From Rhizobium leguminosarum bv. trifolii WSM1325 (GTDB taxonomy: Bacteria; Pseudomonadota; Alphaproteobacteria; Rhizobiales; Rhizobiaceae), in contig CP001622.1 of assembly GCA_000023185.1 (NCBI GenBank), positions 434,001 through 498,000 on the forward strand: a stretch of DNA of 64,000 bases, given 5' to 3'. Both the position numbers and the translations under genes were made by a program. Shown here one piece after another: positions 14,090 through 49,755 of this stretch; positions within the stretch are counted from its first letter, which is position 1, and every line of letters starts with the position of its first letter. The notes under the pieces were generated by a model. It worked only from the letters and a program-made list of their open reading frames with translations. It was not told the DNA's origin and ran no database searches.

Positions 14090-14137
14090 TCGGTGGGCCA
14101 CGAAGCGGGAAAATGGAAGCACGAAAGGGACGTCAGA

Positions 14138-15543: not shown

Positions 15544-15571
15544 CCTCTATGTTCTGCCAAATCGCAGCTAT

Positions 15572-16435
15572 CTAATCCACCAGACCACGCAAGTACTGGC
15601 CATAATCGCCTTTGCCCGCTTGGGCGGCAATCTGGGCGAAGCGCTCCTTCGTGATGAAGCCTTTCGCCAGCGCAATTTCCTCCGGGCAAGCGATTTTGAA
15701 GCCCTGGCGTTTTTCAAGCGTGCGGACGAACCCGCCGGCCTCCAGCAGACTTTCGGGTGTGCCGGTATCAAGCCAGGCATATCCGCGGCCCATCATCGAG
15801 ACACGCAGCTTCCCCCGCTCCAGATATGTCTTGTTGACATCGGTGATCTCGTATTCGCCGCGCGCCGACGGCTTTAGATTGGCTGCGATATCAACGACAT
15901 CAGCATCGTAAAAATAAAGGCCGGTGACAGCCCAGTGCGATTTGGGCTTTGCCGGCTTTTCTTCGATTGAGATTGCAGTCATATCGCTGCCGAATTCGAC
16001 GACGCCGTAACGTTCGGGATCGTGCACGTGATAGGCGAATATCGTCGCTCCATCGCCTTTCGATACACCCTCTTCAAGCAGTTCTGGAAGGCCGTGGCCG
16101 AAGTAGATATTGTCTCCGAGGATCAGACAGGATGGTCCGCCCGCCACGAAGTCCGCTCCGATAATGTAGGCTTGGGCCAGCCCATCGGGACTTGGCTGGA
16201 CAGCATAGCTCAGAGACATGCCCCATTCACTGCCGTCACCCAGCAATCGCTGAAAAAGCGGCATGTCGTGCGGCGTGGAGATGATCAAAACTTCCCGTAT
16301 GCCAGCCAGCATCAAAGTCGTCAGCGGGTAGTAGATCATCGGCTTATCATAGATCGGAAGCAACTGCTTCGAGACCGCATGAGTCATCGGGTGCAGGCGA
16401 CTGCCGCTCCCGCCCGCAAGCACAATACCTTTCAT
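15572..16435 (-). CDS. rmlA: Glucose-1-phosphate thymidylyltransferase
   Basis: 287 residues, full RmlA length. The nucleotidyltransferase motif [11 protein letters not shown] (about 8-18) with [10 protein letters not shown], and the catalytic region [19 protein letters not shown], are present. It forms dTDP-glucose, the first step to dTDP-L-rhamnose. The start at 16435 overlaps the rmlD stop as ATGA; a longer upstream frame lies inside rmlD. It is last of the minus-strand series rmlC, rmlB, rmlD, rmlA. Confidence 0.93.
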
Positions 16436-17325
16436 ACGGCCTCCTTCGGCTCTTCCAAGAGCTTTGTCACAGCAGCGCGCGCTGATATCCGCCACTCCGG
16501 CATGCTCACGCTATAAAGGCTCTTCAGCTTATCGCAACACAGTCTGGAATTGGCTGGCCGTTTCGCTGCTGTGGGATAGTCAGCGGTCGCAATGTCCTTG
16601 ACGGTGACGCGCCTGCCGGTCTTTTCCTCATGAATTGACAATATATATCGTGCAAACCCAGCGCAGCTGGTTTCGCCGCTGCCGGCCAAGTGACAAACGC
16701 CCCGCAAGTCCGGGGTGGAATCGTTTGATAGCCTGCCTGCTATTTTGACGATAGCCCCGGCGATGTCGCCGGCGGAGGTCGGGCAACCCAGTTGATCGCT
16801 GACGACGCTCAGCTCTTCTCGTGTCTCTGCGAGCCTCAACATCGTTATCACGAAGTTGTGGCCAAACGTGGAGTAGACCCAGGCCGTCCGCAGGATGACA
16901 TGGTTTTCATTCGCCGCGGCGACCGCATATTCTCCCTCGAGCTTCGATCTGCCATAGACGGATACCGGTCCGACCGGGTCGCTCTCGACATAGCATTCGG
17001 GCTTGTCTCCATCGAAAACATAATCAGTCGAAAGATGGATGACGGGAAGGGATAGCTCGGCCGTTGCTGCGGCGATGGCTTTTGCGCCGTCTCGATTGAT
17101 GGCGAAAGCTGCCGCCTCGTCGCTTTCGGCTTTGTCAACGGCCGTGTAGGCGGCGGATGAGACGACGACGTCGGGCTTAATTTTCGCAATGATTTCACTC
17201 ACCATCGAAGGCTCAAGCAAATCCAGCTCGGGCCTGCCGATGGCGATGATCTCGATACCTGGCACATTCAGCGCCTGCAGCGCAGACGTGACCTGGCCGC
17301 TCTTGCCTGTTACCGCGATGCGCAT
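16432..17325 (-). CDS. rmlD: dTDP-4-dehydrorhamnose reductase
   Basis: 297 residues. It is an NAD(P)-binding extended SDR with [10 protein letters not shown] (about 7-16), [16 protein letters not shown] and YGRSKLEGE (YxxxK catalytic pair). It reduces dTDP-4-keto-L-rhamnose to dTDP-L-rhamnose. It starts two bases after the rmlB stop and overlaps rmlA by four bases, so the rml genes form one operon. Confidence 0.93.
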
Positions 17326-17327
17326 TC

Positions 17328-18382
17328 TCAGACCTTTTTCAACACGCCAAGCCGTTCACCGGAATACACACGCTCACGCAGCGGCTGCCACCACCAAGCG
17401 TTTTCCAGATACCACTCAACGGTCTTGCGAATACCGCTGTCGAAATTCTCCTGTGCTCTCCAGCCGAGTTCGGTCTCGAGCTTGGTGGCATCGATAGCAT
17501 AGCGAGCGTCGTGGCCCGGCCGATCGGCAACATAGCTTATGAGATCGCTATGCGGAGCGGTGCCAGGCCGGACTTCATCCATGATCGCGCACACGCGCTC
17601 GACAACCTCGATGTTTCGACGCTCGTTGCGCCCGCCAACATTGTATTTTTCGCCCGGACGACCGCGTTGCACGACGAGCCAGAGCGCTCGTGCATGGTCA
17701 TCGACATAGAGCCAATCGCGGATGTTTGCGCCGCTTCCATAGACGGGCAATGGCTTCCGTTCCAGCGCGTTCAATATGATGAGAGGAATGAGCTTTTCCG
17801 GGAAATGAAAGGACCGTAATTATTCGAACAGTTGGAAATGATCACCGGCAGGCCGTAAGTCCTTTCCCACGCCGTCGCGAGATGATCGCTCGCTGCCTTG
17901 GATGCGGAGTAGGGAGAGGACGGATCGTAAGCTGTCGTCTCGGCAAAGAACCCGTCTTCACCGAGGGAACCATAGACTTCGTCGGTGGAGACGTGCAGCA
18001 TCTTGAACGCTGCCTTTGCATCCGGGGGTAGGCACTCCCAATATTGCCGCGCGGCCTCCAGGACGCTGAAGGTGCCGTTTACATTCGTTTCAATAAAATC
18101 CGCCGCTCCGGTGATCGACCGGTCGGCGTGGCTTTCCGCCGCCAGATGCATGACATAATCGGGGCGAAATTCCTCGAAGGCATTGCAGACAGCGCTTCTG
18201 TCGCAAATGTCAGCTTTGAGAAACCTGTAGTTGGGAGCATTCTCGATTGTCTTCAGCGAGGCGAGATTGCCGGCATAGGTCAGCTTGTCGATATTGAGCA
18301 CTTCGGCGCCGATGTCGCTGACGAGATAGCGCACCAATGCCGAACCGATGAAGCCCGCGCCACCCGTTACAAGAACACGCAT
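17328..18382 (-). pseudogene. rmlB: dTDP-glucose 4,6-dehydratase, frameshifted
   Basis: The N-terminal part (start 18382, [42 protein letters not shown]) and the C-terminal part ([28 protein letters not shown]) are both well conserved but lie in different frames. The break is at about 17807: after NNYGPF the sequence has TTTCATTTCC where TTTCCATTTCC would restore [11 protein letters not shown], so one C is missing. The intact gene would encode 351 residues. GGAGGG precedes the start. Either the strain lacks this copy of RmlB or the base was lost in sequencing; the surrounding codons show no other decay, which favours a very recent event or an error. Confidence 0.88.
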
Positions 18383-18395
18383 GAGGCCCTCCGTT

Positions 18396-18962
18396 TCACG
18401 AAAATTGAAAATATGTGGGGAGTTCCGAAAGCCGCGGCTGCTTGTTGTCCTTATCAGAAAGAACGTAGCCATCCATCTGCGGCCACTCGATGCCGATTTC
18501 GGCGTCGTTCCACCGCACGCCACAGTCATGCTCCGCGCTGTAGAGAGCTGTGACCTTGTAGCTTATGATCGTATCAGGCTCCAAAGTTACGAACCCATGC
18601 GCAAATCCGGCCGGCACCCAAAGTTGCGAGCCGTTCTCAGGGGACAGTTCTGCTGAGACCCACTTCCCATATGTCGGAGAGCCATGTCTGATATCGACCG
18701 CCACATCCAGGAGCGCGCCGCGCAGGCAGCGTACAAGTTTGCCTTGTGCGAATGGAGGCGATTGGAAATGGAGTCCCCGGACGGTCCCCGGTTGCGCTGA
18801 AAGGGATTCATTATCCTGCACGAAAGAAACGTCGGCCACGTTCGTGCGGAACCAGAAATCTTTGAAGACTTCGCTGAAGTAGCCCCTCGGGTCACCGAAC
18901 CTGGCAGGTGTGACCTTCTTAACGTCGCCGATCTCCAGTTGTTCCACTTTCAAAGCATACAT
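18396..18962 (-). CDS. rmlC: dTDP-4-dehydrorhamnose 3,5-epimerase
   Basis: 188 residues from the ATG at 18962; a 25-residue N-terminal extension in frame has no family counterpart. The cupin-fold signature is intact: [12 protein letters not shown], the catalytic His in RGLHFQ and Asp in [16 protein letters not shown], then VPAGFAHGF. It epimerises C3 and C5 of dTDP-4-keto-6-deoxyglucose. It lies 13 bases upstream of rmlB and appears to open the rml operon. The ribosome site is weak (GCAAGG). Confidence 0.9.
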
Positions 18963-19208
18963 CCTTGCAAGAGGCTCGGTCGCCGGATTGTGACAGCGAT
19001 TGGGGTATGCGATATAGCCAATTGCCCTGCTGAGCACATACGTTGGCGAGGGCGAGACGGCAACTGGGGTGCGGCGTGAGATGATATTCGTTCACGTCGT
19101 CGAGTCCGTCCTGGCGCTGGCGGTAGTTGAGGGGACGATTCGTGCTTATGTCGCAATCGGCCCGGAAGGCGTAGAGGATTTGCTTCAGTCGCGGTGGAAG
19201 TAAAGATA

Positions 19209-20129
19209 TCACGACGCGAAATCGGCATATGCTCGCGCAATACCATCGCCAAGTGATGTGGTCGCCTTCCATCCAAGTGCCGACAAACGGTCAACGCTCA
19301 TCAGTTTGCGCGGCGTTCCGTCCGGCTTCGTCTGGTCGTAAACAATCTCGCCCGTGAAGCCGACAACCCTCATGATGGTTTCGGCAAGTTCGCGGATGGT
19401 AATGTCTTCGCCCGTCCCAATGTTGATGAGCCCCTCGCTGACCTCCTTTTCCATCAAAAAAACGCAGGCGTCAGCCATGTCGTCGACATACAGGAACTCA
19501 CGCATTGGCCGACCGGATCCCCAGACGACCAACTGCCGGTCACCGCGAATTTTGGCCTCATGGACCTTTCTGATCAAGGCCGGCATCACATGGCTACTGT
19601 CCAAATCATAATTGTCATTCGGCCCGTACAGATTAGTCGGCATCCCCGAGACATAGCGGGTTCCATATTGCCGATTGTAGCTCTCGCACAGCTTGACGCC
19701 CGCTATCTTGGCGATCGCATAGGCCTCGTTCGTCTGCTCCAGGGGGCCAGTCAGCAAATACTCCTCGCGAATGGGCTGAGGGCAGTCGCGTGGGTAGATG
19801 CAACTCGAGCCAAGAAAAAGCATGCGTTCCACACCAGCCTGCCAGGCGGCATGAACAACATTCGTCTCGATCATCAGATTCTGGTAGAGGAACTCAGCAC
19901 GATAAACGTTATTTGCATGGATGCCGCCAACCCTTGCCGCGGCCATGAAGATGTAGTCCGGCCGCTCCGCCTTCATGAATTCGGCAACGGCCGCCTGATT
20001 GACGAGATCCAGCTCGGCGTGGCTTCTGGTAACGATGTTCGTGTAGCCGCCAGCCTTCAGCCTCCGGACAATGGCCGACCCCACCATGCCTCGATGGCCT
20101 GCAACATAGATCTTCACGTCTCTGTTCAT
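19209..20129 (-). CDS. fcl: GDP-L-fucose synthase
   Basis: 306 residues of the extended SDR family. Features are [14 protein letters not shown] (about 11-24), the [13 protein letters not shown] active-site Ser/Cys segment, and [10 protein letters not shown] (YxxxK). It epimerises and reduces GDP-4-keto-6-deoxymannose to GDP-L-fucose. It starts four bases after gmd, which makes its substrate. Fucose is a known rhizobial O-antigen sugar, so a surface role is expected. Confidence 0.93.
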
Positions 20130-20133
20130 CGGA

Positions 20134-21216
20134 TCACTCGTGATAGTCGTATGCGGAGAAGCCGTGGCGTTTCACGAGTTCGTCCCGCTCGGCGGACTTA
20201 AGATCCTCGCGCATCATTTCCTCAACAAGCTGCTTAAACGTTATCCTTGGTTCCCAACCGAGCTTTTCCTTCGCCTTCGACGGATCGCCCAGCAGGGTCT
20301 CGACCTCTGTGGGACGGAAGTATCGGGGGTCGACCGCGACGATGCAGCGGCCGTTCTCGTCGTAGCCTTTTTCCTCGGCGCCTGATCCTTTCCATGAGAT
20401 TGGAAGCCCAATCTCATGGGCCGCGGCGTCGACGAATTCGCGGACGCTGTACTGCACGCCAGTGGCGATGACGAAATCCTCCGGCTCGTCCTGCTGCAGC
20501 ATCAGCCATTGCATCTCGACATAGTCTTTGGCATGCCCCCAGTCACGCTTTGCGTCCAGGTTGCCGAGATAGAGGCAGTCCTGAAGGCCAAGCTTGATGC
20601 GCGCCAGTGCACGGGTGATCTTGCGCGTCACAAAGGTCTCGCCCCGCACGGGGCTCTCGTGGTTGAAGAGGATGCCGTTGCAGGCATAAATGCCATAGGC
20701 TTCCCGATAGTTAACCGTGATCCAGTAGGCGTAGAGTTTGGCGACAGCGTAAGGCGAGCGCGGATAGAAAGGGGTCGTTTCGCGTTGCGGGATTTCCTGC
20801 ACCAGGCCGTAGAGTTCGGAGGTGGACGCCTGGTAGAAACGCGTCTTCTTCTCAAGGCCGAGAATGCGGATCGCCTCGAGGATGCGCAGCGCGCCGAGCG
20901 CGTCGGAATTGGCCGTATATTCCGGCTCTTCGAATGAGACGGCGACATGCGACTGTGCCGCGAGGTTATAGATCTCGTCGGGCTGGACCTGCTGGACGAT
21001 GCGAACGAGGCTCGATGAATCCGTCATGTCCCCGTAGTGCAGCACAAGCCTGCGGTTGGTGTCGTGTGGATCCTGGTAGAGGTGGTCGATGCGGTCGGTA
21101 TTGAAGAGGGACGTGCGGCGCTTGATGCCGTGTACCTCATATCCCTTCTCGATGAGAAGCTCTGCAAGATAGGAGCCGTCCTGGCCCGTGATGCCTGTGA
21201 TGAGGGCTCTTTTCAT
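20134..21216 (-). CDS. gmd: GDP-mannose 4,6-dehydratase
   Basis: 360 residues, normal length. The cofactor motif [14 protein letters not shown] (about 7-20), STSELYG and the catalytic [14 protein letters not shown] are present, with [15 protein letters not shown] typical of Gmd. It converts GDP-mannose to GDP-4-keto-6-deoxymannose for fcl. It is first in the gmd-fcl pair, reading away from the NeuB-like gene across a 644-base gap that must hold both promoters. Confidence 0.94.
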
Positions 21217-21860: not shown

Positions 21861-22889
21861 ATGTTTCGCAAAGATGTTCTCGATGAATCGCCCTTCGTGA
21901 TTGCCGAAGTGGGCCAAAATCATCAGGGAGACCTGGATATCGCCCGAGAATATATCCGAATTTATGCATTCGAAGGCGCGGATGCGATCAAGTTTCAGAC
22001 GCGCAACAATAGGTACCTTTTTTCGGAGGATGCTTATGCGGCGGGGTATGACAGCGAAAATGCTTTTGCAGAAACCTACGGCGCTCATCGAGAGAAGCTC
22101 GAGCTAAAACCGGAATGGCTGCCCATTCTGAAGGCTGATTGCGAAAAGCACGGCGTGAAGTTCATGTCGACACCCTTCGACGAGCCAAGCCTCGAGATCC
22201 TCCAGCAGATTGATGTCGACCTGTTGAAAGTGGCTTCGTTCGATCTTGGCAACCTTCCCTTCCTCAATCGGATCGCGAAACTCGGTAAGCCCGTTGTCAT
22301 GAGCATTGGCGGCGGCAAGATCGAACAGATCCGGTCCAGCGTCGAGGTGGTGTTGAGGCATCACGATCAGTTGGCCATCCTGCACTGCGTCTCCGAATAT
22401 CCGTGCGAGTACAACCGCCTTGGGCTGGACAATATTGAGGTTCTCATCAAGGAGTTTCCGGATTGTATCATCGGCTCGTCCGATCACTTCAACGGGACCT
22501 TGTCAGGCCCGATTGCCTACATGAAGGGCGCGCGCGTGTTCGAAAAGCACGTTACCCTCAACCGCGCCTGGAAGGGCACCGACCATAGCTTTGCACTGGA
22601 GCCTGACGGCTTCCGCAAGTTCGTGCGTGACATCAAGCGCGTCCGCGCGATGATGCCTCAGAAGCCGGCGGACGAGATCGGCAACGAAAGAGTGTTCAAG
22701 AAGCTGGGCAAGTCGATCATCGCATATTCGGACATCCGCGTCGGCGAAGAGCTGACCCTGGATAAGCTTTCGGGTCGCATTTTCAATACCCATTACATAC
22801 CTGTGCGGGAGAGCAATAAGGTTCTCGGAAAGACGGTGAAGCGGGATATTGCAAAGGGTGAACCCATTCAATACTCCGATTTCGGCTGA
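21861..22889 (+). CDS. NeuB-family sialic-acid-type synthase with SAF domain
   Basis: 342 residues. The TIM-barrel NeuB domain (about 8-250) starts PFVIAEVGQNHQGDLDIAREYI and contains GADAIKFQTRN, KVASFDLGNLPFL and FEKHVTLNR; the C-terminal antifreeze-like SAF domain spans about 285-342 (ITDK-type loop replaced by LSGRIFNTHYIPV). The family condenses phosphoenolpyruvate with an aldose to give a nine-carbon or similar ulosonic acid. No NeuC, PseB or LegB-type gene for a usual amino-sugar substrate is nearby, so the aldose partner may be unusual. It starts a five-gene run. Confidence 0.88.
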   Translation: MFRKDVLDESPFVIAEVGQNHQGDLDIAREYIRIYAFEGADAIKFQTRNNRYLFSEDAYAAGYDSENAFAETYGAHREKLELKPEWLPILKADCEKHGVKFMSTPFDEPSLEILQQIDVDLLKVASFDLGNLPFLNRIAKLGKPVVMSIGGGKIEQIRSSVEVVLRHHDQLAILHCVSEYPCEYNRLGLDNIEVLIKEFPDCIIGSSDHFNGTLSGPIAYMKGARVFEKHVTLNRAWKGTDHSFALEPDGFRKFVRDIKRVRAMMPQKPADEIGNERVFKKLGKSIIAYSDIRVGEELTLDKLSGRIFNTHYIPVRESNKVLGKTVKRDIAKGEPIQYSDFG

Positions 22890-23036
22890 GCTTCCGTTCC
22901 GAGGCGTCAAGGGGATACGCACCGAGCCTCAATACGGAACGTCCCCGAAGAACCCACGGGTGGGCAGATCGGGTAAGGAGAGCGGCGCCCAGTCGCTCCC
23001 CGCCTGCCCGGCCTGCATCGAGACGAGGTGGCAATC

Positions 23037-23849
23037 ATGAATGTCGATGGAATTTTTGACGTGAGTGGCGACGTCGTCCTTGTAACCGGTGTTTCCGGCC
23101 AACTGGGCGGCGAGTACGCCAAGGCTTTTCTTGCGCGCAATGCGCGTGTTGTTGGCCTCGATCTCCGTCCCTCTGCCGGCAGCCTCGTGATGCAGGACGA
23201 ATACCCCGACAATTTCATGTTTTGTTCGGCGGATGTAACCAAGAAGGCGTCATTGGAGCAGGCGCTTCAGGACGTGACCGGTAGATTCGGTACGCCCACC
23301 GTCCTCATCAACAATGCCGCTATCGATTCTCCGCCTTCCGCCCCGCCCGAGGAAAACGGCCCGTTTGAAGACTACCCGGAAGCGTCTTGGGACAAGGTTA
23401 TCGACGTGAACCTCAAGGGCGTCTATCTCTCATGCCAGGTATTCGGCGCCGCGATGGCTAATGCCGGCAAGGGATCAATCATCAACGTCGCTTCCATTTA
23501 TGGGCTCGTTTCTCCCGACCAGAGCCTCTACGAATATCGCCGAAAGCGCGGAGAGGTCTTCTTCAAACCCGTGGCCTATTCAGCATCGAAATCCGGTATC
23601 CTGAATCTGACGCGATACCTGGCGACTTATTGGGCGAAGCGCAACGTGCGCGTAAACTCGCTCACGATCGCGGGCGTCTTTAACAACCAGGAGCAGGACT
23701 TCCTCGATGTCTACTGCAGCCGGATCCCGATCGGTCGTATGGCGAGCGTCGATGAATACAACGGCGCTATGTTATTCTTGGCGAGCCCTGCATCCCGATA
23801 TATGACGGGCTCTAATCTCATCATCGACGGCGGCTGGACGGCAATCTGA
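23037..23849 (+). CDS. Short-chain dehydrogenase/reductase of the ulosonate cassette
   Basis: 270 residues of the classical SDR fold: TGVSGQLGGEYA near residue 15, NNAAIDSPPS, INVASIYG with the catalytic Ser and AYSASKSGIL with Tyr and Lys; the C-terminus ends IIDGGWTAI as usual. The ATG at 23037 has GAGGTGG seven bases upstream; a GTG at 23028 is possible. It probably oxidises or reduces a sugar hydroxyl or ketone in the pathway of its neighbours. It begins 147 bases after the synthase, with no recognisable gene between them. Confidence 0.88.
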   Translation: MNVDGIFDVSGDVVLVTGVSGQLGGEYAKAFLARNARVVGLDLRPSAGSLVMQDEYPDNFMFCSADVTKKASLEQALQDVTGRFGTPTVLINNAAIDSPPSAPPEENGPFEDYPEASWDKVIDVNLKGVYLSCQVFGAAMANAGKGSIINVASIYGLVSPDQSLYEYRRKRGEVFFKPVAYSASKSGILNLTRYLATYWAKRNVRVNSLTIAGVFNNQEQDFLDVYCSRIPIGRMASVDEYNGAMLFLASPASRYMTGSNLIIDGGWTAI

Positions 23850-23851
23850 AC

Positions 23852-25312
23852 ATGACGACGCTTCGCATTCTCAATTGGATCAACGGCCAGGCCAGCCACG
23901 CCTCGAGTGAAGGATGGCTTGAGAAATTCAATCCGCACAGTGGCGAACTCCTTTATCACGTGGCTGACTCCTCGCAGGATGATGTTGAGCAAGCAATAAC
24001 GGCAGCGCGTTCGGCGTTCCCAGCCTGGGCGGAGCTTACACCCGTAAAGCGCGGCCAGATTCTGATGGATATCGTCGCCCTGATGAAGCGACGTTCCGAT
24101 GAGCTGGCGGAATGCATTGCGCTTGAAACCGGCAAACCTCCCCAGGACGCCAAAGGCGAGACGGGCGGAGCGATCATGCAGGCGGAATATTTCGCCGGCG
24201 AGGGTATGCGCCTATACGCCCGGTCGCTCACCTCAGGCACGCCCGGCAAATACAGCCACACAGTGCGCCAACCTCGTGGCGTAGCCGGTCTGATCGTGCC
24301 GGCAAATACGCCGATCGCCAATATCGCATGGAAGACTTTTCCTGCGCTTATTTGCGGCAACACGGTGGTTCTGAAAGCTGCCGAGGACTCTCCACGCATA
24401 GCCCAACTCTTTGCCGAGCTGACCAAGGAGGCGGGATTGCCCGACGGCGTATTCAACGTCGTACATGGGCGTGGCGAGCCGGCTGGCTCGACGTTGGTCA
24501 CAGACGAGCGGGTCGACATTATCAGCTTCACGGGCTCGACCGGAGTAGGCCGCAGGATTGCGGAAGTCGCTGGAAAGCGTCTCGCACGTATTTCTCTCGA
24601 ACTGGGCGGCAAGAACCCCTTCGTCGTCTGTGATGACGCCGATCTCGATCAGGCGGTGCACTGGGCGGCGCTGTCGGCCTTCAGCAATGCCGGCCAGCGC
24701 TGCGCCGCAGGTAGCCGCATGCTGGTGTTTAAATCGGTCTACGAGGAGTTTCGGGACCGACTGACCGCAAAGGCCAGAAGCCTCAAGCTAGGTGTTGCCG
24801 CCGGATGCGATCTCGGGCCGCTCGTCAGCCTCCGCCAACAGCAGTCCGTGCTTTCCGCCATCGAACGCGCAAAAGAACAAGGCGGCCAGGTGCTTTGCGG
24901 GGGGCGCACACCGGACGCACCGGAGTTGGCCGGAGGCTATTATGTCGAGCCTACAGTTATCGATGGCCTTGCCACCACGTCGGATCTCAGTTGCAAGGAA
25001 GTCTTCGGTCCGGTGACGACACTCCATCCCGTCGGCAGCATGACCGAGGCGCTGGATGTAGCAAACGCCACCGAATACGGATTGACCGCTGCTGTGCATA
25101 CCCGCAACGTCGATCGCGCGATGTGGTTCGCCCAAAGGGTCAAAGCCGGCGTCGCCAATGTCAACATGGGTACGTATGGCAGCGAGCCGCACATGCCGTT
25201 CGGCGGCTTCGGGTCGTCCGGGAATGGCACGCGCGAGCCTGGAGTCGAGGCGCTCGATGTGTATTCGGAACTGAAAAACATCTCCTTCCTTGTCCGCCCG
25301 GGGATGCTTTGA
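23852..25312 (+). CDS. NAD(P)-dependent aldehyde dehydrogenase in the polysaccharide locus
   Basis: 486 residues of the aldehyde dehydrogenase superfamily. Visible motifs are VPANTPIANIAWKTFPAL (NAD site), FTGSTGVGRRI, ELGGKNPFVV with the general-base Glu, and GQRCAAGSR with catalytic Cys284. It starts two bases after the SDR stop. An aldehyde dehydrogenase is not part of known sialic, pseudaminic or legionaminic pathways; here it may oxidise a sugar aldehyde to an acid. Substrate unknown. Confidence 0.88.
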   Translation: MTTLRILNWINGQASHASSEGWLEKFNPHSGELLYHVADSSQDDVEQAITAARSAFPAWAELTPVKRGQILMDIVALMKRRSDELAECIALETGKPPQDAKGETGGAIMQAEYFAGEGMRLYARSLTSGTPGKYSHTVRQPRGVAGLIVPANTPIANIAWKTFPALICGNTVVLKAAEDSPRIAQLFAELTKEAGLPDGVFNVVHGRGEPAGSTLVTDERVDIISFTGSTGVGRRIAEVAGKRLARISLELGGKNPFVVCDDADLDQAVHWAALSAFSNAGQRCAAGSRMLVFKSVYEEFRDRLTAKARSLKLGVAAGCDLGPLVSLRQQQSVLSAIERAKEQGGQVLCGGRTPDAPELAGGYYVEPTVIDGLATTSDLSCKEVFGPVTTLHPVGSMTEALDVANATEYGLTAAVHTRNVDRAMWFAQRVKAGVANVNMGTYGSEPHMPFGGFGSSGNGTREPGVEALDVYSELKNISFLVRPGML

Positions 25313-25314
25313 TC

Positions 25315-26085
25315 ATGACGACGAAACCGCGCTCTGTTGCCTTTATTCCCGCACGCTCTGGTTCAAAGCGGGTACCCAACAAGAATGTCCGGCCGCTGGC
25401 CGACCATCCCATGATCGCCTATTCGATCCGCGCCGCCATCGACAGCGGTGTTTTTGACGCGGTTATCTGTGCAACGGACAGCGAGATTTATGCGGACATC
25501 GCCCGCCACTATGGCGCCGAAGTGCCGTTTCTGCGCGCCGCGGAGATCTCCACCGACAAATCGCCGGATATCGAATGGGTGGTTTGGATGCTGGAACAAC
25601 TTCGTGCCGAAGGGCGCGAGTTCGACATATTCAGCATTCTGCGCCCCACCAGCCCGTTTCGTCTTCCAGAGACGATCCAGCGCGCATGGCAGCAGTTCAC
25701 GGCCGAACCAAGAGCAGATTCTCTTCGCGCAATCGAGAAATGCAAGCAGCATCCCGGCAAGATGTGGGTCATACGCGAGAACAGGATGCTCCCGCTAATG
25801 CCATTTAGCATCGGCACGACGCCATGGCACAGCAGTCAGTATGCGGCTCTGCCCGAAGTCTATGCGCAGGATGCCAGCCTTGAGATTGCGTGGTCGCGTG
25901 TCCCGCTCGAAAGCAACAGCATCGCCGGCGAATCGATCATCCCTTTCGTCAGCCAAGGCTATGAAGGCTTCGATATCAACGAACCGGACGACTGGTGGAT
26001 GGCCGAGCGATTGCTGGCAACGCAATCGGCGGTTCTCCCAAATATCTCAATCAACCCCTATAACCTATTGAATAGACCGGAGTAA
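25315..26085 (+). CDS. CMP-sugar (acylneuraminate-type) cytidylyltransferase
   Basis: 256 residues from the ATG at 25315, two bases after the dehydrogenase stop. The nucleotide-binding signature IPARSGSKRVPNKNVRPL (about 11-28) is that of NeuA, PseF and KdsB relatives, followed by ILRPTSPFRLPETI. It should transfer CMP to the anomeric hydroxyl of an ulosonic acid. Its presence in one operon with a NeuB-type synthase is the strongest evidence that the cassette makes a CMP-activated keto-acid sugar. Confidence 0.9.
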   Translation: MTTKPRSVAFIPARSGSKRVPNKNVRPLADHPMIAYSIRAAIDSGVFDAVICATDSEIYADIARHYGAEVPFLRAAEISTDKSPDIEWVVWMLEQLRAEGREFDIFSILRPTSPFRLPETIQRAWQQFTAEPRADSLRAIEKCKQHPGKMWVIRENRMLPLMPFSIGTTPWHSSQYAALPEVYAQDASLEIAWSRVPLESNSIAGESIIPFVSQGYEGFDINEPDDWWMAERLLATQSAVLPNISINPYNLLNRPE

Positions 26086-26088
26086 ATC

Positions 26089-27999
26089 GTGGGCGATCTC
26101 GTAGGACAAGCGGTAGAAGGCACCCTTTATTACCTGCCATATAAGGAATTCCAGCGGGTACGTGCGATCAACGCGCCTCGCGAGCAGAGAGCAGCTCTAT
26201 TTTCTGACATGTGTCGCCTGAACGCGCTCTACATGATCGGTCGGGCCGGCTCCGGTCATATCGGCAGCAGTTTCAGCAGTCTCGATATCGTCAGCTGGCT
26301 TCTCCTCGAAGGAATGACGGGCGATGATGTCTATTTCAGCTCCAAGGGGCACGATGCGCCAGGCTATTACGCGGCACTGATTGGCGCCGGTAAGCTCGAT
26401 TTCGAGCTTACCCACAAACTTCGCCAGATTGATGGTCTGCCCGGCCATCCCGACGTCGGCACCCCGGGCATGGTGACAAATACGGGCTCGCTCGGCATGG
26501 GCGTCTCCAAGGCCAAGGGCATGGTGATTGCGAACAGGCTGAACAACCGCCCGGGGCGCATCTTCGTGATGACGGGCGACGGCGAGCTTCAGGAAGGCCA
26601 GTTCTGGGAATCCCTGGTCTCGGCAGCCAATTCTGGGCTGCAGGAGATTACGGTCATCATCGATCACAACAAGCTGCAGTCGGACACTTTCGTGAAGAAC
26701 GTGTCTGACCTTGGTGACCTTGAGGCAAAGCTCAGGGCGTTTGGATGGTGTGTCGCTCGCTGTGATGGAAACGATATCGCTGCTTTTGCCGCCACCCTGG
26801 CCGCCATCCAAGACGATCCGCGTCCGAAGGTTATCGTTGCCGATACCGTCAAGGGCAAGGGCGTCTCCTTCATGGAGCACACGTCACTGGATTCCGATGT
26901 GGCCATGTACCGCTTCCACAGCGGCGCGCCTGATGCGAGTAATTATCGCGCCGCCGCGCAGGAAATCATGGATCGTCTGCAAGCCAATCTGAGCAGCGCC
27001 GGTATCACCGAGCTGGAGTTTGAAACGCTCGAGCGGCCTGCATCCGCGGCCCCGTCGGAAAAGGCTCAGCGCCTGGTTGCCGCCTACAGCAAGGCTCTGA
27101 TCGCACAGGCTAAGAAGCATTCGAACCTCGTTGCACTTGACGCAGACCTGGTGCTGGATACCGGCCTCATCCCATTCCGCGAGCAGTTTCCCGATCGATT
27201 TGTCGAGTGCGGTATCGCAGAACAGGATATGGTTTCTACAGCCGGCGGCATGGCGCTGAACGGCCTGCTGCCGATCGTCCACTCATTCGCGTGCTTCCTG
27301 TCGACGCGGCCAAATGAGCAGATCTACAACAACGCCACGGAAAAGACGAAGATTATATATGTCGGCTCCCTTGCAGGCGTCGTTCCCGGCGGCCCGGGCC
27401 ACTCGCATCAATCCGTTCGAGACATCTCTGCGCTGGCAGCCATGCCTGGAATGACGCTGGTCGAGCCGTCTTGCGATGCGGAAGTTGGTCTGCTCCTGGA
27501 TTGGTGCGTGAACGAAGCTCCTGGCAGCAGCTACATTCGGCTGATTTCACTACCTTGGGAAATCCCGTATTCACTTCCGGCCGACTACCGGCCAACAAAC
27601 GGCCGAGGACTCACTTTGGCTGAAGGAGAGGATGTCGCCATTATCGCTTACGGACCGGTGCTCCTGAGCAATGCGATCGCCGCCTCAAAAGTGCTCGCTG
27701 AGAAGCACGGTATCAGTGCCAAGGTCATCAACCTACCTTGGCTAAATCACGTGGATGCGGAGTGGCTGCAATCGACGGTTTCAGCTTGCAAGGCAATTGT
27801 TTGCCTCGACAACCACTATGTCATCGGTGGTCAAGGCGATACGATCGCGCGTGCGCTTGCCGAAGCCGGAACCGGAATTCCCGTCAAGCACATCGGGATC
27901 ACAGGGGTTCCTCCTAGCGGAACCAACGTCCAAGTCCTCGGCGCAGTTGGCCTCGATGCCTCGGCGATCGCCGAGACGGTCGCGTCGGTAATCGGTTGA
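26089..27999 (+). CDS. Transketolase in the polysaccharide locus
   Basis: 636 residues with both thiamine-diphosphate halves. The N-terminal domain has SGHIGSSFSSLDIVSW and the ThDP/Mg motif GDGELQEGQFWES...NK; the second half has VALDADLVLDTG and FVECGIAEQDMVSTAGG. A GTG start with CGGAG upstream follows the cytidylyltransferase by three bases. The length and split resemble catalytic transketolases, not the housekeeping Tkt of about 660. It probably moves a two-carbon unit to build a long-chain ketose or aldose used by the synthase. Such a gene beside neuB-like and neuA-like genes is unusual. Confidence 0.88.
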   Translation: MGDLVGQAVEGTLYYLPYKEFQRVRAINAPREQRAALFSDMCRLNALYMIGRAGSGHIGSSFSSLDIVSWLLLEGMTGDDVYFSSKGHDAPGYYAALIGAGKLDFELTHKLRQIDGLPGHPDVGTPGMVTNTGSLGMGVSKAKGMVIANRLNNRPGRIFVMTGDGELQEGQFWESLVSAANSGLQEITVIIDHNKLQSDTFVKNVSDLGDLEAKLRAFGWCVARCDGNDIAAFAATLAAIQDDPRPKVIVADTVKGKGVSFMEHTSLDSDVAMYRFHSGAPDASNYRAAAQEIMDRLQANLSSAGITELEFETLERPASAAPSEKAQRLVAAYSKALIAQAKKHSNLVALDADLVLDTGLIPFREQFPDRFVECGIAEQDMVSTAGGMALNGLLPIVHSFACFLSTRPNEQIYNNATEKTKIIYVGSLAGVVPGGPGHSHQSVRDISALAAMPGMTLVEPSCDAEVGLLLDWCVNEAPGSSYIRLISLPWEIPYSLPADYRPTNGRGLTLAEGEDVAIIAYGPVLLSNAIAASKVLAEKHGISAKVINLPWLNHVDAEWLQSTVSACKAIVCLDNHYVIGGQGDTIARALAEAGTGIPVKHIGITGVPPSGTNVQVLGAVGLDASAIAETVASVIG

Positions 28000-28120: not shown

Positions 28121-29842
28121 ATGAGCATGCATTTTATTCGCAGGGCGATCAGATTTGCCAAGAGAGTTGTGAGTTCGAAGCTGTCGCTGCAACAAAGTTC
28201 TGCGCCCGCGGCGGCTCAGCAGTTTTCGGACTGGCGCCGCCATCTCGGCACGTCCATCGATTGGAAAAGGGCCTTATCCTCTGTTTCGAAAGGCCAGGAG
28301 GTTCTTATCGCGACGAGCGTCGGCGGTCTGTCGGCCGCGACGATCCTCGAAGGAATGCTTGGCGTCGCTCTTACCTTGCGCGGTGCGCGGGTTCGCTTTC
28401 TCTTATGTGACGCAGTTCTTCCGGCCTGTCTTCACATACATGCCGGAAAAATCAGGGATCCGGCCGTCATCACAGAGTACAGGCTCAACAAGGAAATCTG
28501 TCCAGGTTGCATCGGAAGGGGTAGATCGCATTACGGCTCTCTTGGACTGCCGGTCTCCTACTACAGCGACTTCATTTCTGAAGAAGAGAGACGTGCATTG
28601 CGCAAGACAGCCCGCGAGATGCCGGTTTCGGAAATTCGCGGCTTTCGGCTGAAAGATATGAATCTGGGCGAGCACGCGATGGCAGGCACCTTGCGCTTCT
28701 TCGCTTCGGGAAACCTCCCGGCAACCCAGGAAGCCGAAGATGTATTGCGGCGCTATTTTGAGGCGGCTCTGATCACGGAGACGGTCATTCAGAGATACCA
28801 TGAGCAGTTTTCGCCGGAAGTCGCCGTGTTTCACCATGGTATCTACGTCCCTCAGGGGGTAATCGGGGAAGTCTGTCGTGCCCATGGCACCCGAGTCGCC
28901 AACTGGCAGGTCGGCTATCGCAAGAAGACCTTCATTTTCTCGCACAAGGAAACCTACCACCATACTCTGATAAACGAGTCTACCGACTGCTGGACAGACG
29001 TTCCTTGGAGCGAGGCCACGGAAAACGAGATCATGTCCTATCTCAAGAGCCGCTGGTACGGCAGCAATGACTGGATATGGTTTCATGATCAGCCGAAGCA
29101 TGACGCAGAACTTATCGCCAAGGAGACCGGCATCGACTTTTCGAAGCCCACCATCAGTCTCCTGACCAATGTCTTTTGGGATGCGCAACTCCATTTCAAG
29201 GCCAATGCCTTCAGGGACATGCTCGACTGGGTGCTGCAGAGTATTGAGTATTTTAAGGGGCGTCCCGATCTTCAACTGGCTATTCGGATCCATCCTGCCG
29301 AAGTCCGTGGCGCCATCCCCTCACGGCAGCCGCTTGTGGATGAAATCCGCAAGGTTTATCCGACCCTGCCGGACAATGTTTACGTCATACCGCCGGACAG
29401 CCAGGTCAGTACCTATGTTCTCTGTGAGAACAGTGACACTGTAGTTATCTATGGGACAAAAACCGGCGTGGAGCTGACCGCCATGGGAATTCCCGTGGTC
29501 GTTGCAGGTGAGGCGTGGATACGTAATAAGGGCCTCACCATGGATGCGACCTCGCCGGAGAATTATTTTGACTTGCTCGACCGGCTGCCGGTCGGCAAGC
29601 GGTTGGACGCCGATACGATCAATCGGGCTAGAAAATACGCATTCCATTTCTTTTTTCGACGCTTCATCCCTATCGAGTTCATGGAACCATCGAGCAATGA
29701 CGCTCCCTACGAAATTAGGATCAACGACCTGCAGGATCTGCTTCCGGGCAGGGATGCGGGCCTTGATGTCCTATGCAACGGCATTCTTGATGGAAGCGAG
29801 TTCGTGTATCCGGCGGAAAAGTATATCGGGAGAACGCAGTGA
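28121..29842 (+). CDS. KpsC/KpsS-like capsule polysaccharide protein, paralogue 1
   Basis: 573 residues. A central-to-C-terminal region resembles the capsule Kdo-transferase type of KpsC/KpsS: HGIYVPQGVIGEV, RIHPAEVRGAIPSRQP, VIPPDSQVSTY and IYGTKTGVELTAMGIP then VVAGEAWIR. An N-terminal domain with CPGCIGRG-type cysteines precedes it. It shares this whole architecture with the 590-residue protein at 38699. GGAGG about 10 bases upstream supports the ATG. Its role is probably transfer of a keto-acid or other sugar to the polysaccharide; this is inference. Confidence 0.72.
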   Translation: MSMHFIRRAIRFAKRVVSSKLSLQQSSAPAAAQQFSDWRRHLGTSIDWKRALSSVSKGQEVLIATSVGGLSAATILEGMLGVALTLRGARVRFLLCDAVLPACLHIHAGKIRDPAVITEYRLNKEICPGCIGRGRSHYGSLGLPVSYYSDFISEEERRALRKTAREMPVSEIRGFRLKDMNLGEHAMAGTLRFFASGNLPATQEAEDVLRRYFEAALITETVIQRYHEQFSPEVAVFHHGIYVPQGVIGEVCRAHGTRVANWQVGYRKKTFIFSHKETYHHTLINESTDCWTDVPWSEATENEIMSYLKSRWYGSNDWIWFHDQPKHDAELIAKETGIDFSKPTISLLTNVFWDAQLHFKANAFRDMLDWVLQSIEYFKGRPDLQLAIRIHPAEVRGAIPSRQPLVDEIRKVYPTLPDNVYVIPPDSQVSTYVLCENSDTVVIYGTKTGVELTAMGIPVVVAGEAWIRNKGLTMDATSPENYFDLLDRLPVGKRLDADTINRARKYAFHFFFRRFIPIEFMEPSSNDAPYEIRINDLQDLLPGRDAGLDVLCNGILDGSEFVYPAEKYIGRTQ

Positions 29843-30504
29843 GACCGCATTGGGATCACGCCTTCGCAAGTGGCGGCGTCTACCAGGAATCGGACAATTG
29901 GTCCAAACTGCTGGATCCTGTCTTCCGCGTAGGAGAAAGGCTCTACGGCCAATATTCCATGCGGCGGATCTGGGCTGCCTGGAAGAAGGCGGCGCTGCTG
30001 GAACCGGGCGTCAGACTTGGCGGAAATGCTAGATTGATCAACAAGCACACCAGGGATGCAGCCCGTATTGGCGAGAACACAGTGTGCCGAGGGATCATCC
30101 GGGTCGAGCGCGGCGCACGTGTCGATATCGGCAAAGAGGTCTATCTGGGCGATGAGGCCATCATCAGCGCCATGGAGTCCGTCACCATCGGCCGGGGAAC
30201 GCTGATTGCGCATGGCGTCCAGATTTTCGACAATACCTCTCATCCGATCGATTGGAGAGGTCGCGAGCGCCATTTCAAAAGGATCCTGGGGCAACCTGTT
30301 GATGGAAGTATCGAAATCCCTACAGCGCCCGTGTCTATTGGGGAGCATTGCTGGCTGGGATTCGGTTCGGCAGTGCTGAAAGGTGTGACAATCGGTGATC
30401 GTTCTATTGTCGCCGCTGGCTGTGTTGTGACAAAAGACGTGCCACCAGACACCCTGGTTGTCTCCTCGATGGCAACTTTTATCGATCTGAACAAGCAAGG
30501 TTAG
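29839..30504 (+). CDS. Left-handed beta-helix acyl- or acetyltransferase
   Basis: 221 residues. Hexapeptide repeats run through the middle (VDIGKEVYLGDEAIIS, then IGRGTLIAHGVQIFD), with NTSHPIDW and the closing IGEHCWLGFGSAVLKGVTIGDRSIVAAG. The family O-acetylates sugars using acetyl-CoA. A GTG start overlaps the upstream stop (GTGA). It probably adds an acetyl group to a residue of the polysaccharide. Confidence 0.85.
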   Translation: MRPHWDHAFASGGVYQESDNWSKLLDPVFRVGERLYGQYSMRRIWAAWKKAALLEPGVRLGGNARLINKHTRDAARIGENTVCRGIIRVERGARVDIGKEVYLGDEAIISAMESVTIGRGTLIAHGVQIFDNTSHPIDWRGRERHFKRILGQPVDGSIEIPTAPVSIGEHCWLGFGSAVLKGVTIGDRSIVAAGCVVTKDVPPDTLVVSSMATFIDLNKQG

Positions 30505-33411: not shown

Positions 33412-33448
33412 ATTGAGCTCAGCGCGAAACAGATCCGGCAGATACGCA

Positions 33449-34279
33449 ATGAAAAATCAAGAGAAAATAACGTATATCAAACCCGCAGGGCGCTTCGCCA
33501 AAATAGATTTAGAGGAGCATTGGCGCGCGCGCTACATGTTCACAATGCTGGTCTGGAAGAAAATTCGCGCCTCTTTCGGGGAGATGTACTTCTGGTTCAT
33601 CTGGGTTTGCGCCAAGCCTCTGTTGTACGTGATGATATTTTCGCTCTTCAAGCACTGGTCGCAGGCTCGGACCGGGGTGGAAATACCATATGTTCTTTAT
33701 ATTTATAGCGGGCTTATCCTTTGGTACTACTTCCTCGAAACCGCCATCGACGTATCGTTGAATATCAAGGCCAATGCGGCTCTCGTGACGAAAATATACC
33801 TTCCTCGGATGATCACGCCCACGGTGCCGTTGCTGGCCAATCTGATGGACCTGGCAATATCCATGATACCGCTGATCCTGATGATGATCTATTATGGGGT
33901 CTATCCCGGATGGCAGATCTTGATGATCATTCCAACGCTCTTGGTTGTGATGATCACAGCCATGGGGACCGGCCTTATTATAGCGACGATCACTCTGCGG
34001 CTGCGCGACTTTCAGAAAATATTTGAGTTTTCGCTCTACCTCGCGATGTTTATCTCGCCGGTCATCTTCTCGCCCAGCATGATTCCCGAAGCCTTCCATT
34101 GGGTCTACCATATGAATCCGATGGTCGGTGCATTGATCGGTTGGCGAGAAGCGCTCTTCGGATCGGCCTCATTCCCATGGGGAGCTTGGGTTTATTCCTG
34201 CTCCTTTGCAGTGCTGGCTCTCATTGTCGGCCTCTATCTCTATCTCAGGTTCGAACATGAAATGATCGAGGCGATCTAA
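33449..34279 (+). CDS. wzm: ABC-2 type polysaccharide exporter permease (Wzm-like)
   Basis: 276 residues with six predicted membrane helices (for example LYVMIFSLFKHW, LYIYSGLILWYYF and IPTLLVVMITAMGTG), ending LYLYLRFEHEMIEAI. It is typical of the Wzm/KpsM class that carries lipid-linked O-antigen or capsule across the inner membrane. The ATG at 33449 was chosen over a TTG at 33413. The ATPase follows after four bases. Confidence 0.9.
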   Translation: MKNQEKITYIKPAGRFAKIDLEEHWRARYMFTMLVWKKIRASFGEMYFWFIWVCAKPLLYVMIFSLFKHWSQARTGVEIPYVLYIYSGLILWYYFLETAIDVSLNIKANAALVTKIYLPRMITPTVPLLANLMDLAISMIPLILMMIYYGVYPGWQILMIIPTLLVVMITAMGTGLIIATITLRLRDFQKIFEFSLYLAMFISPVIFSPSMIPEAFHWVYHMNPMVGALIGWREALFGSASFPWGAWVYSCSFAVLALIVGLYLYLRFEHEMIEAI

Positions 34280-34283
34280 GAAC

Positions 34284-35552
34284 ATGGCAGAGTCGGTCAT
34301 CGAAGTTTTCGATATTTCCAAGCAGTATGAAATTGGTTCAGGCGGAGGCCTGAGTATGAGCAAACTTGCTCGTGAGACAGCATTGTGGCCGTATCGCAAG
34401 ATGCGTGGCCAGTCTGTTCCGCCCCTCTACAGGAAAAGGCAGAATTTCTGGCCGCTGCGTGACGTCTCGTTTTCTGTGGATCGCGGCGAAGTTGTCGGAA
34501 TTATCGGCGCGAATGGCGCCGGTAAAAGCACACTTCTGAAGATATTATCCCGCATTGTCACTCCAACATCGGGAAGTGCGACCATTCGAGGGCGCGTCAG
34601 CTCGCTGATTGAAGTGGGCACCGGCTTCAACGCCAATCTTTCCGGACGTGAAAACGTCTTCTTGAATGCGTCGTTGCATGGGCTGTCACGTGAAGAAGTC
34701 GCCGCACGTTTCGACGAGATCGTCGACTTTTCCGGGGTCGGCAAATTCATCGACACCCCGGTCAAGCACTACTCGAGTGGCATGTACAGCCGGCTGGCCT
34801 TCTCCGTTGCAGCGCACCTCGACCCAGATCTTCTGTTCGTGGATGAAGTGCTCGCCGTGGGCGACATGGCGTTCCAGCAGAAATGCCTCAACCGCTTTTC
34901 CGAGATGGTGGGCGGCAACCGAACCGTGCTGTTCGTCAGCCACAACCTTAGCGCCGTCTCGAACATCTGTTCAAAGGTACTATGGCTGGATCAGGGGCGC
35001 GTCCGGTATTTTGGTCCGACCGAAGAGGGTATCGCGGCCTATTATGAAGCGACTATGCCTTCAACGGCGCAGACGCTCGAAACCCGCTTCGACCGGACAG
35101 GCACCGGCGATTTCATGTTCAATAAGATCTCCTTCTATGACTCTTCGATGCAGCCCTCCGAACGGGTGACGACCGGACAAGAACTCATCATCGGGCTGGA
35201 GTATCGCGCTAAACTGGAAATGATCGGGGATATCCGCGATATGAGTTTGGTGGTCATTTTCAAGAATGATAAAGGTCACCGGCTGTTTGGCTTGCCAAGC
35301 GACGTGCTTGCGCATGGTGAGACGCCGCGCTTGACAGAAACAGGAGAATATCTCGTCAAGATCCCAAGCCTTCCGCTGCTTCCGGGCATCTACGACTTGG
35401 ATCTGGGATGCATAATCAACCGTGCGACAACAGACAAGATCGTATCCGCCAAGCGCTTGATTGTCACCGAATCGGATTTTTTTGGCTCCGGAAAGCTTCC
35501 GCCGGTTCAGCAAGGTGATCTCCTGGTGCGTTTCGACAATGAATGGCGCTGA
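34284..35552 (+). CDS. wzt: Polysaccharide exporter ATPase with C-terminal sugar-binding domain (Wzt-like)
   Basis: 422 residues. The ABC domain (about 1-245) has Walker A GANGAGKST, the Wzt-type signature YSSGMYSRL and Walker B LLFVDEV. A C-terminal region (about 260-422) has the beta-rich Wzt carbohydrate-binding type and includes LLPGIYDLDLGCI. In Wzt systems this domain recognises the chain terminus and so ties export to chain capping; the methyltransferases nearby could supply the cap. It pairs with wzm. Confidence 0.92.
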   Translation: MAESVIEVFDISKQYEIGSGGGLSMSKLARETALWPYRKMRGQSVPPLYRKRQNFWPLRDVSFSVDRGEVVGIIGANGAGKSTLLKILSRIVTPTSGSATIRGRVSSLIEVGTGFNANLSGRENVFLNASLHGLSREEVAARFDEIVDFSGVGKFIDTPVKHYSSGMYSRLAFSVAAHLDPDLLFVDEVLAVGDMAFQQKCLNRFSEMVGGNRTVLFVSHNLSAVSNICSKVLWLDQGRVRYFGPTEEGIAAYYEATMPSTAQTLETRFDRTGTGDFMFNKISFYDSSMQPSERVTTGQELIIGLEYRAKLEMIGDIRDMSLVVIFKNDKGHRLFGLPSDVLAHGETPRLTETGEYLVKIPSLPLLPGIYDLDLGCIINRATTDKIVSAKRLIVTESDFFGSGKLPPVQQGDLLVRFDNEWR

Positions 35553-42426: not shown

Positions 42427-42560
42427 CTTCGCAGCTTCGAAAGCTGCTGTCGGATTGCACTTCGAGCTCTTCGCGTTGGCCCGGCAGCGAAGAAAATGCC
42501 TTGCCATCGCCTTACGCCTTTGCAATGTCACCGGTGACTGAAGCAAATCGGGAAATCGGA

Positions 42561-49265: not shown

Positions 49266-49755
49266 AACTTCTTAGAGATGAGTCCAGAGAGCGAGTGGCT
49301 GACCACTACCTCGATCGTGTTTGCTCTACAATTTGACTATCGTGTATAAGTCTCTATAATGCGATCCGGTGACCGAATCGATCGAATAGAATAACGAGAA
49401 GGCGCAGGAAAAACAAAGATATCTGGCGTCAATTTTGTAAATGTGAGTCTTATAAAATGTATTAAACTGATTTTTTTAAAACATCAAAATTCGGACCATC
49501 GGTGGGAGTCACATTTTGTTTTATGCCTTCAGAATTCCGGCGGGCCACTGCGTTGCCGTATTCCCGCCCTTCGAAGAGCGAGCTATCGCGGCACTTGACA
49601 ACGGAAATTTCTTTGCGAGGTGCGGCGTTTCCGTTCTCACAGTTCACGATCTGGATGGCAGTCGCTTCTGGAAAGGTGGCATTCGGCCCGCGTCACGCCA
49701 TTGATGGAGAAAAGCAAGCCGCCGTCGCTTTGTGCCCCAAGAGTTGGAGACGTCA
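49266..49755 (+). other. AT-rich gap with a possible short coding remnant before traA
   Basis: The left part (49350-49500) is very AT-rich with no gene. From about 49480 to 49704 an open plus frame reads IRTIGGSHILFYAFRIPAGH and later VSVLTVHDLDGSRFW; it looks protein-like but has no good start and I cannot name it. No relaxase nick site could be recognised with confidence, though an oriT would be expected here. Confidence 0.4.

Follow-up and report, generated by a model that had tools for sequence, protein, structure and literature searches.

What does a bacterium make with a sialic-acid-type synthase whose gene stands in one run with that of a complete transketolase? The question arises at positions 21861-27999 of a 64,000-nucleotide stretch of Rhizobium leguminosarum bv. 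trifolii WSM1325 (contig CP001622.1, 434,001-498,000 of the forward strand; genome size 7.42 Mb), referred to here as the window, where five genes encode a NeuB-type synthase, a short-chain dehydrogenase/reductase (SDR), an aldehyde dehydrogenase (ALDH), a cytidine monophosphate (CMP)-sugar cytidylyltransferase (CMPT) and a transketolase (TK). As far as sequence comparison can tell, this cassette very likely represents a dedicated pathway of the CMP-ulosonic type, other than those leading to neuraminic (Neu), legionaminic (Leg), pseudaminic (Pse) or 3-deoxy-D-manno-octulosonic acid (Kdo), and its product is probably an acidic surface sugar that has not yet been described. How it might do so is a more tentative matter: a route in which SDR, TK and ALDH act after NeuB and shorten its product, giving a CMP-activated ulosaric acid, is a serious possibility that falls somewhat short of an even chance. 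The first-pass annotation of this DNA had proposed a non-canonical CMP-ulosonic sugar, and that proposal is supported by the conservation of the cassette, by NeuB and CMPT scores below the Neu, Pse and Kdo cut-offs, and by a genome with one NeuB and no NeuC match.

The five genes and their families

All five genes are intact open reading frames (ORFs) on the plus strand and form one run by ORF and sequence inspection, and their Pfam matches agree with the families first named for them. The spacing of 2 to 3 bases reported for the last four genes was confirmed by measurement, the gaps through the cassette being 138, 2, 2 and 3 bases.

21861-22889, plus strand: NeuB-type ulosonate synthase, 342 aa, predicted to condense phosphoenolpyruvate (PEP) with an aldehyde sugar (PF03102, 224.5 bits)
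22890-23027, plus strand: gap without a haloacid dehalogenase (HAD) gene; in 18 of 24 module loci a KdsC-like HAD phosphatase is encoded at this place
23028 (GTG; ATG at 23037)-23849, plus strand: classical SDR (PF13561 adh_short_C2, 144.4 bits), putatively oxidising a penultimate hydroxyl
23852-25312, plus strand: ALDH (PF00171 Aldedh, 515.6 bits), putatively converting an omega-aldehyde to a carboxylate
25315-26085, plus strand: CMPT of a cassette-specific subfamily (PF02348 CTP_transf_3, 78.1 bits)
26089 (GTG)-27999, plus strand: full-length TK of a cassette-specific clade, with all three transketolase domains

The CMPT start is the ATG at 25315 as read from the sequence, the ORF list opening the same frame upstream at 24805, and the family scan of this protein began at base 25327, four residues past its ATG. 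A scan for promoters and terminators returned no more sites than were found in shuffled sequences.

None of the five proteins reaches a curated NCBIfam cut-off among the families shown (for the SDR the best 25 of 194, for the ALDH the best 25 of 44). NeuB reaches 247 bits against the NeuB model (cut-off 399.65) and 205.6 against PseI (cut-off 340.25), missing both, while CMPT scores 136.9 bits against PseF (cut-off 205.7) and 41.6 against the best Kdo cytidylyltransferase model (cut-off 193) and is 55-85% identical to 19 cassette counterparts. The genome has a single NeuB and, at E <= 0.001, no match to NeuC, the UDP-GlcNAc 2-epimerase (the control was positive in 10 of 14 genomes).

With the pathways to N-acetylneuraminic (Neu5Ac), legionaminic and pseudaminic acid the cassette shares the NeuB and CMPT superfamilies; it differs from them in missing the equivalog cut-offs, in the lack of a NeuC match in the genome and in having no aminotransferase or N-acetyltransferase among its five genes. 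An ordinary Neu, Leg or Pse locus was rejected in view of the sub-cut-off NeuB and CMPT, the single NeuB and the lack of a NeuC match. A diverged pathway of this kind, its absent steps supplied from elsewhere, would account for the superfamily membership of NeuB and CMPT, but is extremely improbable given scores so far under the family cut-offs, the single NeuB and the want of a NeuC match; no aminotransferase family was found in the window proteins scanned either, PseB, PseC and LegB-type genes having not been searched genome-wide. The earlier statement that N-acetyltransferases are lacking holds for the five genes, but is qualified by a hexapeptide acyltransferase gene at 29839-30504. Existing database names for NeuB relatives include sialic-acid labels, and if the present reading is right, annotators could stop labelling cassette genes as sialic acid genes.

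Conservation and spread of the cassette

An alignment of 16 NeuB sequences, the window's own and 15 of at least 120 matches, was used to scan named genome contigs and yielded 37 loci (designated by L numbers). The cassette SDR is present in 24 of these, and in every one of the 24 the genes present keep the order NeuB-(HAD)-SDR-ALDH-CMPT-TK on one strand, far beyond what chance would give, and a chance run of metabolic genes was rejected on this ground. The SDR loci span Proteobacteria, Bdellovibrionota, Bacteroidetes and Zixibacteria. Seeking the same gene order elsewhere had been proposed as a check, and it was found in these 24 of 37 loci, 18 of them with all five genes and 14 with the five genes and the HAD phosphatase; singly, ALDH occurs in 23, cassette-type CMPT in 22, cassette-type TK in 21 and HAD between NeuB and SDR in 18. 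Gene presence was called by identity thresholds chosen by the authors, matches below threshold being counted as absent, among them a Streptomyces SDR (44% identity) just under its threshold. The 24 include the closest named locus, L005 of R. leguminosarum Tri-43, whose cassette proteins are 98-100% identical to those of the window and which, as the counterpart of this locus in a close relative, does not count as an independent case. A split TK occupies the cassette TK position in L016 and L026, and in the L034 genome TK lies on another contig. Gene content, order and spread, like the families, the subfamily distinctness, the residue changes and the predicted transferase fold given in other sections, are computed results.

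The 13 loci without SDR comprise seven distant NeuBs (L035-L041), L031, which a contig end cuts off, and L021, L022, L025, L029 and L030. In the last five, which have close NeuBs, no CMPT reaches 50% identity: that of L021 is at 32% and that of L030 at 44%, and within the limited flanks of L022, L025 and L029 none was found. At L060 the gene order is broken by a NeuB match of a different type (31%). Small cupin-like proteins of about 142 aa lie near or adjoin cassette-type NeuB in three loci (L022:6778-7206, L029:2837-3268 and L030:11001-11426), the one of the three scanned, that of L022, matching Cupin_2.

Relatives of NeuB at least 80% identical occur in other phyla, for example Zixibacteria (83%). 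The cassette CMPT is rare: it is detected at E <= 1e-60 in 2 of 394 genomes sampled from the family and in 5 of 398 from the phylum, and at E <= 1e-40 in 10 of 385 genomes of the class sample, four of these scoring >390 bits and the rest <=213; the strain's own genome is counted in all three samples. In a quick tree the nearest rows to the window TK are those of Zixibacteria and other Proteobacteria, not that of Ciceribacter, a member of the Rhizobiaceae, and horizontal transfer of the cassette is therefore likely as far as the sequences indicate.

A search of plasmids and phages with TK gave one informative match, from Streptomyces (51%), along with six other plasmid and four phage records at 30-36%, and a plasmid search with CMPT gave one record at 39%. 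The informative match belongs to a NeuB-SDR-TK triad on a plasmid of Streptomyces sp. NBC_01237 (L058:13123-16971), in which TK, 51% identical, has the same active-site signature. The triad sits inside a cluster with a nonribosomal peptide synthetase, a glyoxalase-fold protein (resembling 4-hydroxyphenylpyruvate dioxygenase by reading), an FMN dehydrogenase and aminotransferases, and no cassette CMPT or ALDH match was found in the 32 kb around it. A class-III aminotransferase by the triad was considered as an aldehyde-aminating substitute for ALDH and rejected; it passes the cut-off for L-lysine 6-transaminase (569.3 vs 520.8, NCBIfam).

The transketolase

The cassette-type TKs, 27 in number with that of Streptomyces among them, group in a single clade separate from four Tkt and four Dxs rows (SH-aLRT 100) in a quick tree that leaves out split and human TKs and L092 and carries long-branch warnings for L063, L058, L096 and L085. 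The genome of the strain has a separate Tkt and Dxs (identified by reading; rows from L068 and L071, respectively), both outside this clade. A split transketolase in the L021 genome was examined as a possible cassette type and set aside, being only 28-31% identical.

An N-terminal extension, in which M1, G2, G6 and V9 are invariant, is common to the 19 TKs of alignment A2. The catalytic residues H37, H110, K244, H258 and E366 of human TK correspond to H57, H120, K255, H277 and E378, which are likewise invariant in the 19. Human TK residues R318, S345, H416 and R474 we take to be phosphate ligands. Against the human structure (4kxu), the cassette TK has L428 for H416, P436 for D424, D357 for S345, S487 for R474 and a gap for R318; the changes at H416, D424 and R474 are also seen against the strain's own Tkt, and those at R318 and S345 depend on the human alignment, the own-Tkt alignment being poor there. 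All five positions belong to a published human TK active-site model (PMC8016368). The altered phosphate pocket suggests that the substrate of the cassette TK is not a normal sugar phosphate; changes of this kind would be expected with a donor that has ceased to be a sugar phosphate.

A probable place for the trio after NeuB

The first-pass annotation had TK and ALDH build the acceptor for NeuB. In a closely similar reading, SDR, TK and ALDH would make an unusual aldose or acid acceptor; NeuB would lengthen it by three carbons, and the resulting octulosonic or nonulosonic acid would be CMP-activated at its full length. That TK performs carbon-chain chemistry and that the genes cluster with NeuB speak for this, but by established chemistry the product of TK addition is a ketose and ALDH removes the very aldehyde that NeuB needs. 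Moreover, the L021 and L022 assemblies hold a cassette-type NeuB and HAD and gave no match to the cassette-type SDR at 1e-45 (both assemblies are small and may be incomplete), and no cassette-type TK was found in them, the best scores being 167.5 and 85.4 bits against at least 823.7 in four genomes with a clear cassette TK; ALDH was sought in the fetched loci, not genome-wide. Supply of a precursor by the trio is distinctly unlikely, and the claim built on it was not supported. If the absence from L021 and L022 is real, the NeuB acceptor would not depend on the trio, and SDR, TK and ALDH would probably come into play afterwards, on the NeuB product.

The family relationships of SDR and ALDH bear on what the trio might do there. 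The best 25 of 194 NCBIfam matches of SDR, none of them at its cut-off, include GolD/DthD (best), gluconate 5-dehydrogenase and KduD, and the SDR residues S156, Y184 and K188 are invariant in 17 aligned sequences; gluconate 5-dehydrogenase and KduD act at the penultimate carbon. The nearest model to ALDH (best 25 of 44) is alpha-ketoglutaric semialdehyde dehydrogenase, at 422 bits against a cut-off of 770, an enzyme that acts on a 2-keto acid ending in an aldehyde. A CH2OH-CO end made by SDR could be cleaved by TK, the remainder would be an aldehyde, and ALDHs oxidise aldehydes; from this follows the chain-shortening route, of which we infer every reaction, the reaction order and the product. 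NeuB would form an ulosonate phosphate by joining PEP to an aldose that is probably phosphorylated, and a phosphatase, the cassette HAD in 18 of 24 module loci and an enzyme encoded elsewhere in this strain, would strip the phosphate. SDR would then oxidise the penultimate carbon to produce the CH2OH-CO end, the form of a transketolase donor, TK would remove this two-carbon end to leave an omega-aldehyde two carbons shorter, and ALDH would convert the aldehyde to a carboxylate. The resulting diacid would be an ulosaric acid (with a hexose as acceptor, a heptulosaric acid), which the cytidylyltransferase would activate to the CMP-sugar and a KpsC-like transferase would add to the chain of an exported surface polysaccharide. 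On chemical reasoning 8-keto-Kdn, viewed from its C9 end, would match D-fructose in its C3/C4 configuration, which is the usual form of a TK donor. One locus, L010, has SDR, ALDH and TK together with an enzyme of the mandelate racemase/muconate lactonising (MR/MLE) superfamily, nearest galactonate dehydratase (160.9 bits, cut-off 311), a ketopantoate-reductase-like ApbA-type reductase and a second CMPT type (13880-16729, near NeuB-HAD), and the MR/MLE enzyme and the reductase beside the trio suit a diacid product with a distal carboxylate.

Stated more fully, the proposal is of a chain-shortening branch of sialic-acid-type metabolism that gives CMP-heptulosaric acids, was passed between phyla as a unit and had its NeuB-SDR-TK triad reused in a Streptomyces peptide cluster; in this form it is conceivable, with the chances leaning against it.

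The proposed phosphatase step

KdsC-like HAD phosphatases go with phosphorylated ulosonate intermediates, and the Bacteroides KDN route consists of a NeuB-type KDN-9-phosphate synthase, a KDN-9-phosphate phosphatase and a CMP-KDN synthetase. The HAD encoded between NeuB and SDR has the motif DFDGVFT in 9 of 10 sequences and DFDGVLT in one. Three that were tested score 109-112 bits against the KdsC model (cut-off 208), 91-96 against the YrbI subfamily (cut-off 106.95) and 80.5-88.9 against the KDN-9-phosphate phosphatase model (cut-off 180), and from this likeness a phosphorylated ulosonate intermediate would be expected. In the window, the 138-bp gap between NeuB and SDR contains no HAD remnant.

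The cassette resembles the Bacteroides KDN route in combining NeuB, a KdsC-like HAD and a cytidylyltransferase with no amino-sugar genes, and differs from it in the kept SDR, ALDH and TK in the three tested HADs, which stay under the KDN-9-phosphatase cut-off, and in the lack of a HAD gene in the cassette of the window. It might be supposed that NeuB, phosphatase and CMPT suffice to make a plain Kdn-type acid as the product, the trio only topping up central metabolism or balancing redox. The make-up shared with the Bacteroides route and the HAD scores against the KDN-9-phosphatase model favour such a view. Against it, the trio and its gene order persist across phyla while this strain possesses a Tkt and a Dxs of its own outside the cassette, and a CMPT at the 50% level was found, within limited flanks, in none of the five close NeuB loci that lack SDR. 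A plain Kdn-type product is therefore judged unlikely.

Weighing the chain-shortening route

Several observations count against the chain-shortening route. The window has no cassette phosphatase, and the genome gave no match to KdsC (TIGR01670) at E <= 0.001, a search whose control found matches in 11 of 14 genomes, four over the cut-off. ALDH is absent in L027, L059, L061 and L063, so the route would leave a bare aldehyde there unless another ALDH serves. No cassette-type TK was found in the L061 genome (91% complete, 230 contigs), and the L025 genome has a cassette-type TK (823.7 bits) with no cassette-type SDR found. The loss of phosphate-binding residues would fit any unphosphorylated TK substrate. 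At L021:10023-12843 an MR/MLE enzyme, a reductase and a second CMPT type, 59, 34 and 61% identical to those of L010, stand in a locus without SDR, ALDH or TK, so the link of the MR/MLE and reductase pair with ALDH is loose. NeuB I307 aligns with R314 of NmNeuB, and this replacement was tried and dropped as a general mark of the module, since L059 and L061 show Arg in that stretch. The known heptulosaric acid has the D-lyxo configuration, and by the same chemical reasoning a TK-cleaved Kdn would give another isomer. Core heptulosaric acid is reportedly present in Rhizobiaceae, as Russa is said to have described in 1991 (cited in PMC5713287). With its CMPT in only 2 of the 394 family genomes, the cassette cannot account for such a core constituent across the family.

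A HAD-IIA hydrolase encoded in the same island (42501-43409, plus strand) exceeds the cut-offs of TIGR01460 and TIGR01459; that it stands in for the absent phosphatase is possible but unsupported. Although no KdsC match turned up, the genome does contain, away from the cassette, a strong match to CTP_transf_3 that is perhaps KdsB.

Relation to known systems

The Kdo pathway (KdsD, KdsA, KdsC, KdsB) is similar in using a phosphorylated 3-deoxyulosonate, which we infer for the cassette, a phosphatase and CMP activation. It differs in that the cassette has a NeuB-family synthase and a CMPT well short of the Kdo model, a stronger CTP_transf_3 match lying elsewhere in the genome. 3-Deoxy-D-lyxo-hept-2-ulosaric acid (Dha), found in rhamnogalacturonan II and in Rhizobiaceae lipopolysaccharide, is of the product class predicted by chain shortening, but neither its isomer nor its distribution fits the view that it is simply the predicted product. 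Searches by title or abstract start in the open-licence literature found no paper on the biosynthesis of Dha or heptulosaric acid, and none on a cassette joining transketolase to a nonulosonic, ulosonic or sialic acid synthase. To our knowledge a chain-shortening cassette would be the first genetic route to the heptulosaric product class; it would add a pathway with a sugar-acid-acting transketolase to the few known CMP-ulosonic routes, and it offers a testable candidate for bacterial heptulosaric acid synthesis. In the part of an Accumulibacter glycan paper that was available, the CMP-sugars named are Pse, Leg and Kdo only, and the main text has no transketolase (PMC12925313).

The surrounding surface-polysaccharide island

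The cassette lies in an island with a lowered G+C fraction, about 0.52-0.60 at 16-50 kb, against 0.58-0.63 in the first 16 kb. Genes of dTDP-rhamnose and GDP-fucose type (pathway names by reading) occupy one side of it on the minus strand (15572-21216), and the other flank carries two KpsC-like transferases, a hexapeptide acyltransferase, methyltransferases, glycosyltransferases, and an ABC-2 permease with a Wzt-type ATPase.

28121-29842, plus strand: KpsC-like glycosyltransferase, candidate user of the CMP-sugar
29839-30504, plus strand: hexapeptide acyltransferase, possibly for glycan O-acetylation (PF00132; best NCBIfam match WbbJ, 66.5 bits, cut-off 243)
33413-35552, plus strand: ABC export pair, ABC-2 permease (PF01061) and ATPase with a Wzt C-terminal domain (PF00005 and PF14524)
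38699-40471, plus strand: second KpsC-like glycosyltransferase (PF05159), 45% identical to the first

From the ABC-2 permease and the Wzt-domain ATPase, the glycan is probably an ABC-exported O-polysaccharide. The acyltransferase and methyltransferase genes downstream, together with the loci lacking ALDH, would accord with a trio that makes a separate substituent, such as an acyl or ether group carried by the CMP-sugar or by a different residue, and not the sugar skeleton. The spacing of 2-3 bases and the position of CMPT between ALDH and TK favour a single pathway instead, and no ligase or transferase is common to the locus maps inspected by eye, which makes a separate substituent very unlikely.

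The predicted fold of the 28121-29842 transferase aligns best with KpsC, a CMP-Kdo transferase (11% identity to 6mgb); by Foldseek E-value KpsC ranks only fifth, behind four other GT-B enzymes. It resembles the KpsC/WbbB retaining beta-Kdo transferases in predicted fold, in the HP motif (H391-P392), which occurs in 11 of 11 aligned KpsC-like sequences including both from the window, and in the aligned catalytic Asp354, also kept in all 11. A QXXXD motif is reported as invariant in KpsC-like transferases (PMC10148158); here, apart from the low identity to 6mgb, the difference is that it reads NXXXD in 10 sequences and SXXXD in one (L032), so the invariant Gln is replaced.

Elsewhere in the island, an rmlB-like dehydratase gene (17328-18529, minus strand) is split into two ORFs in the window and forms a single open frame in L005, and a large MobA/MobL relaxase with AAA and BID domains is encoded at the island edge (49732-54366, plus strand).

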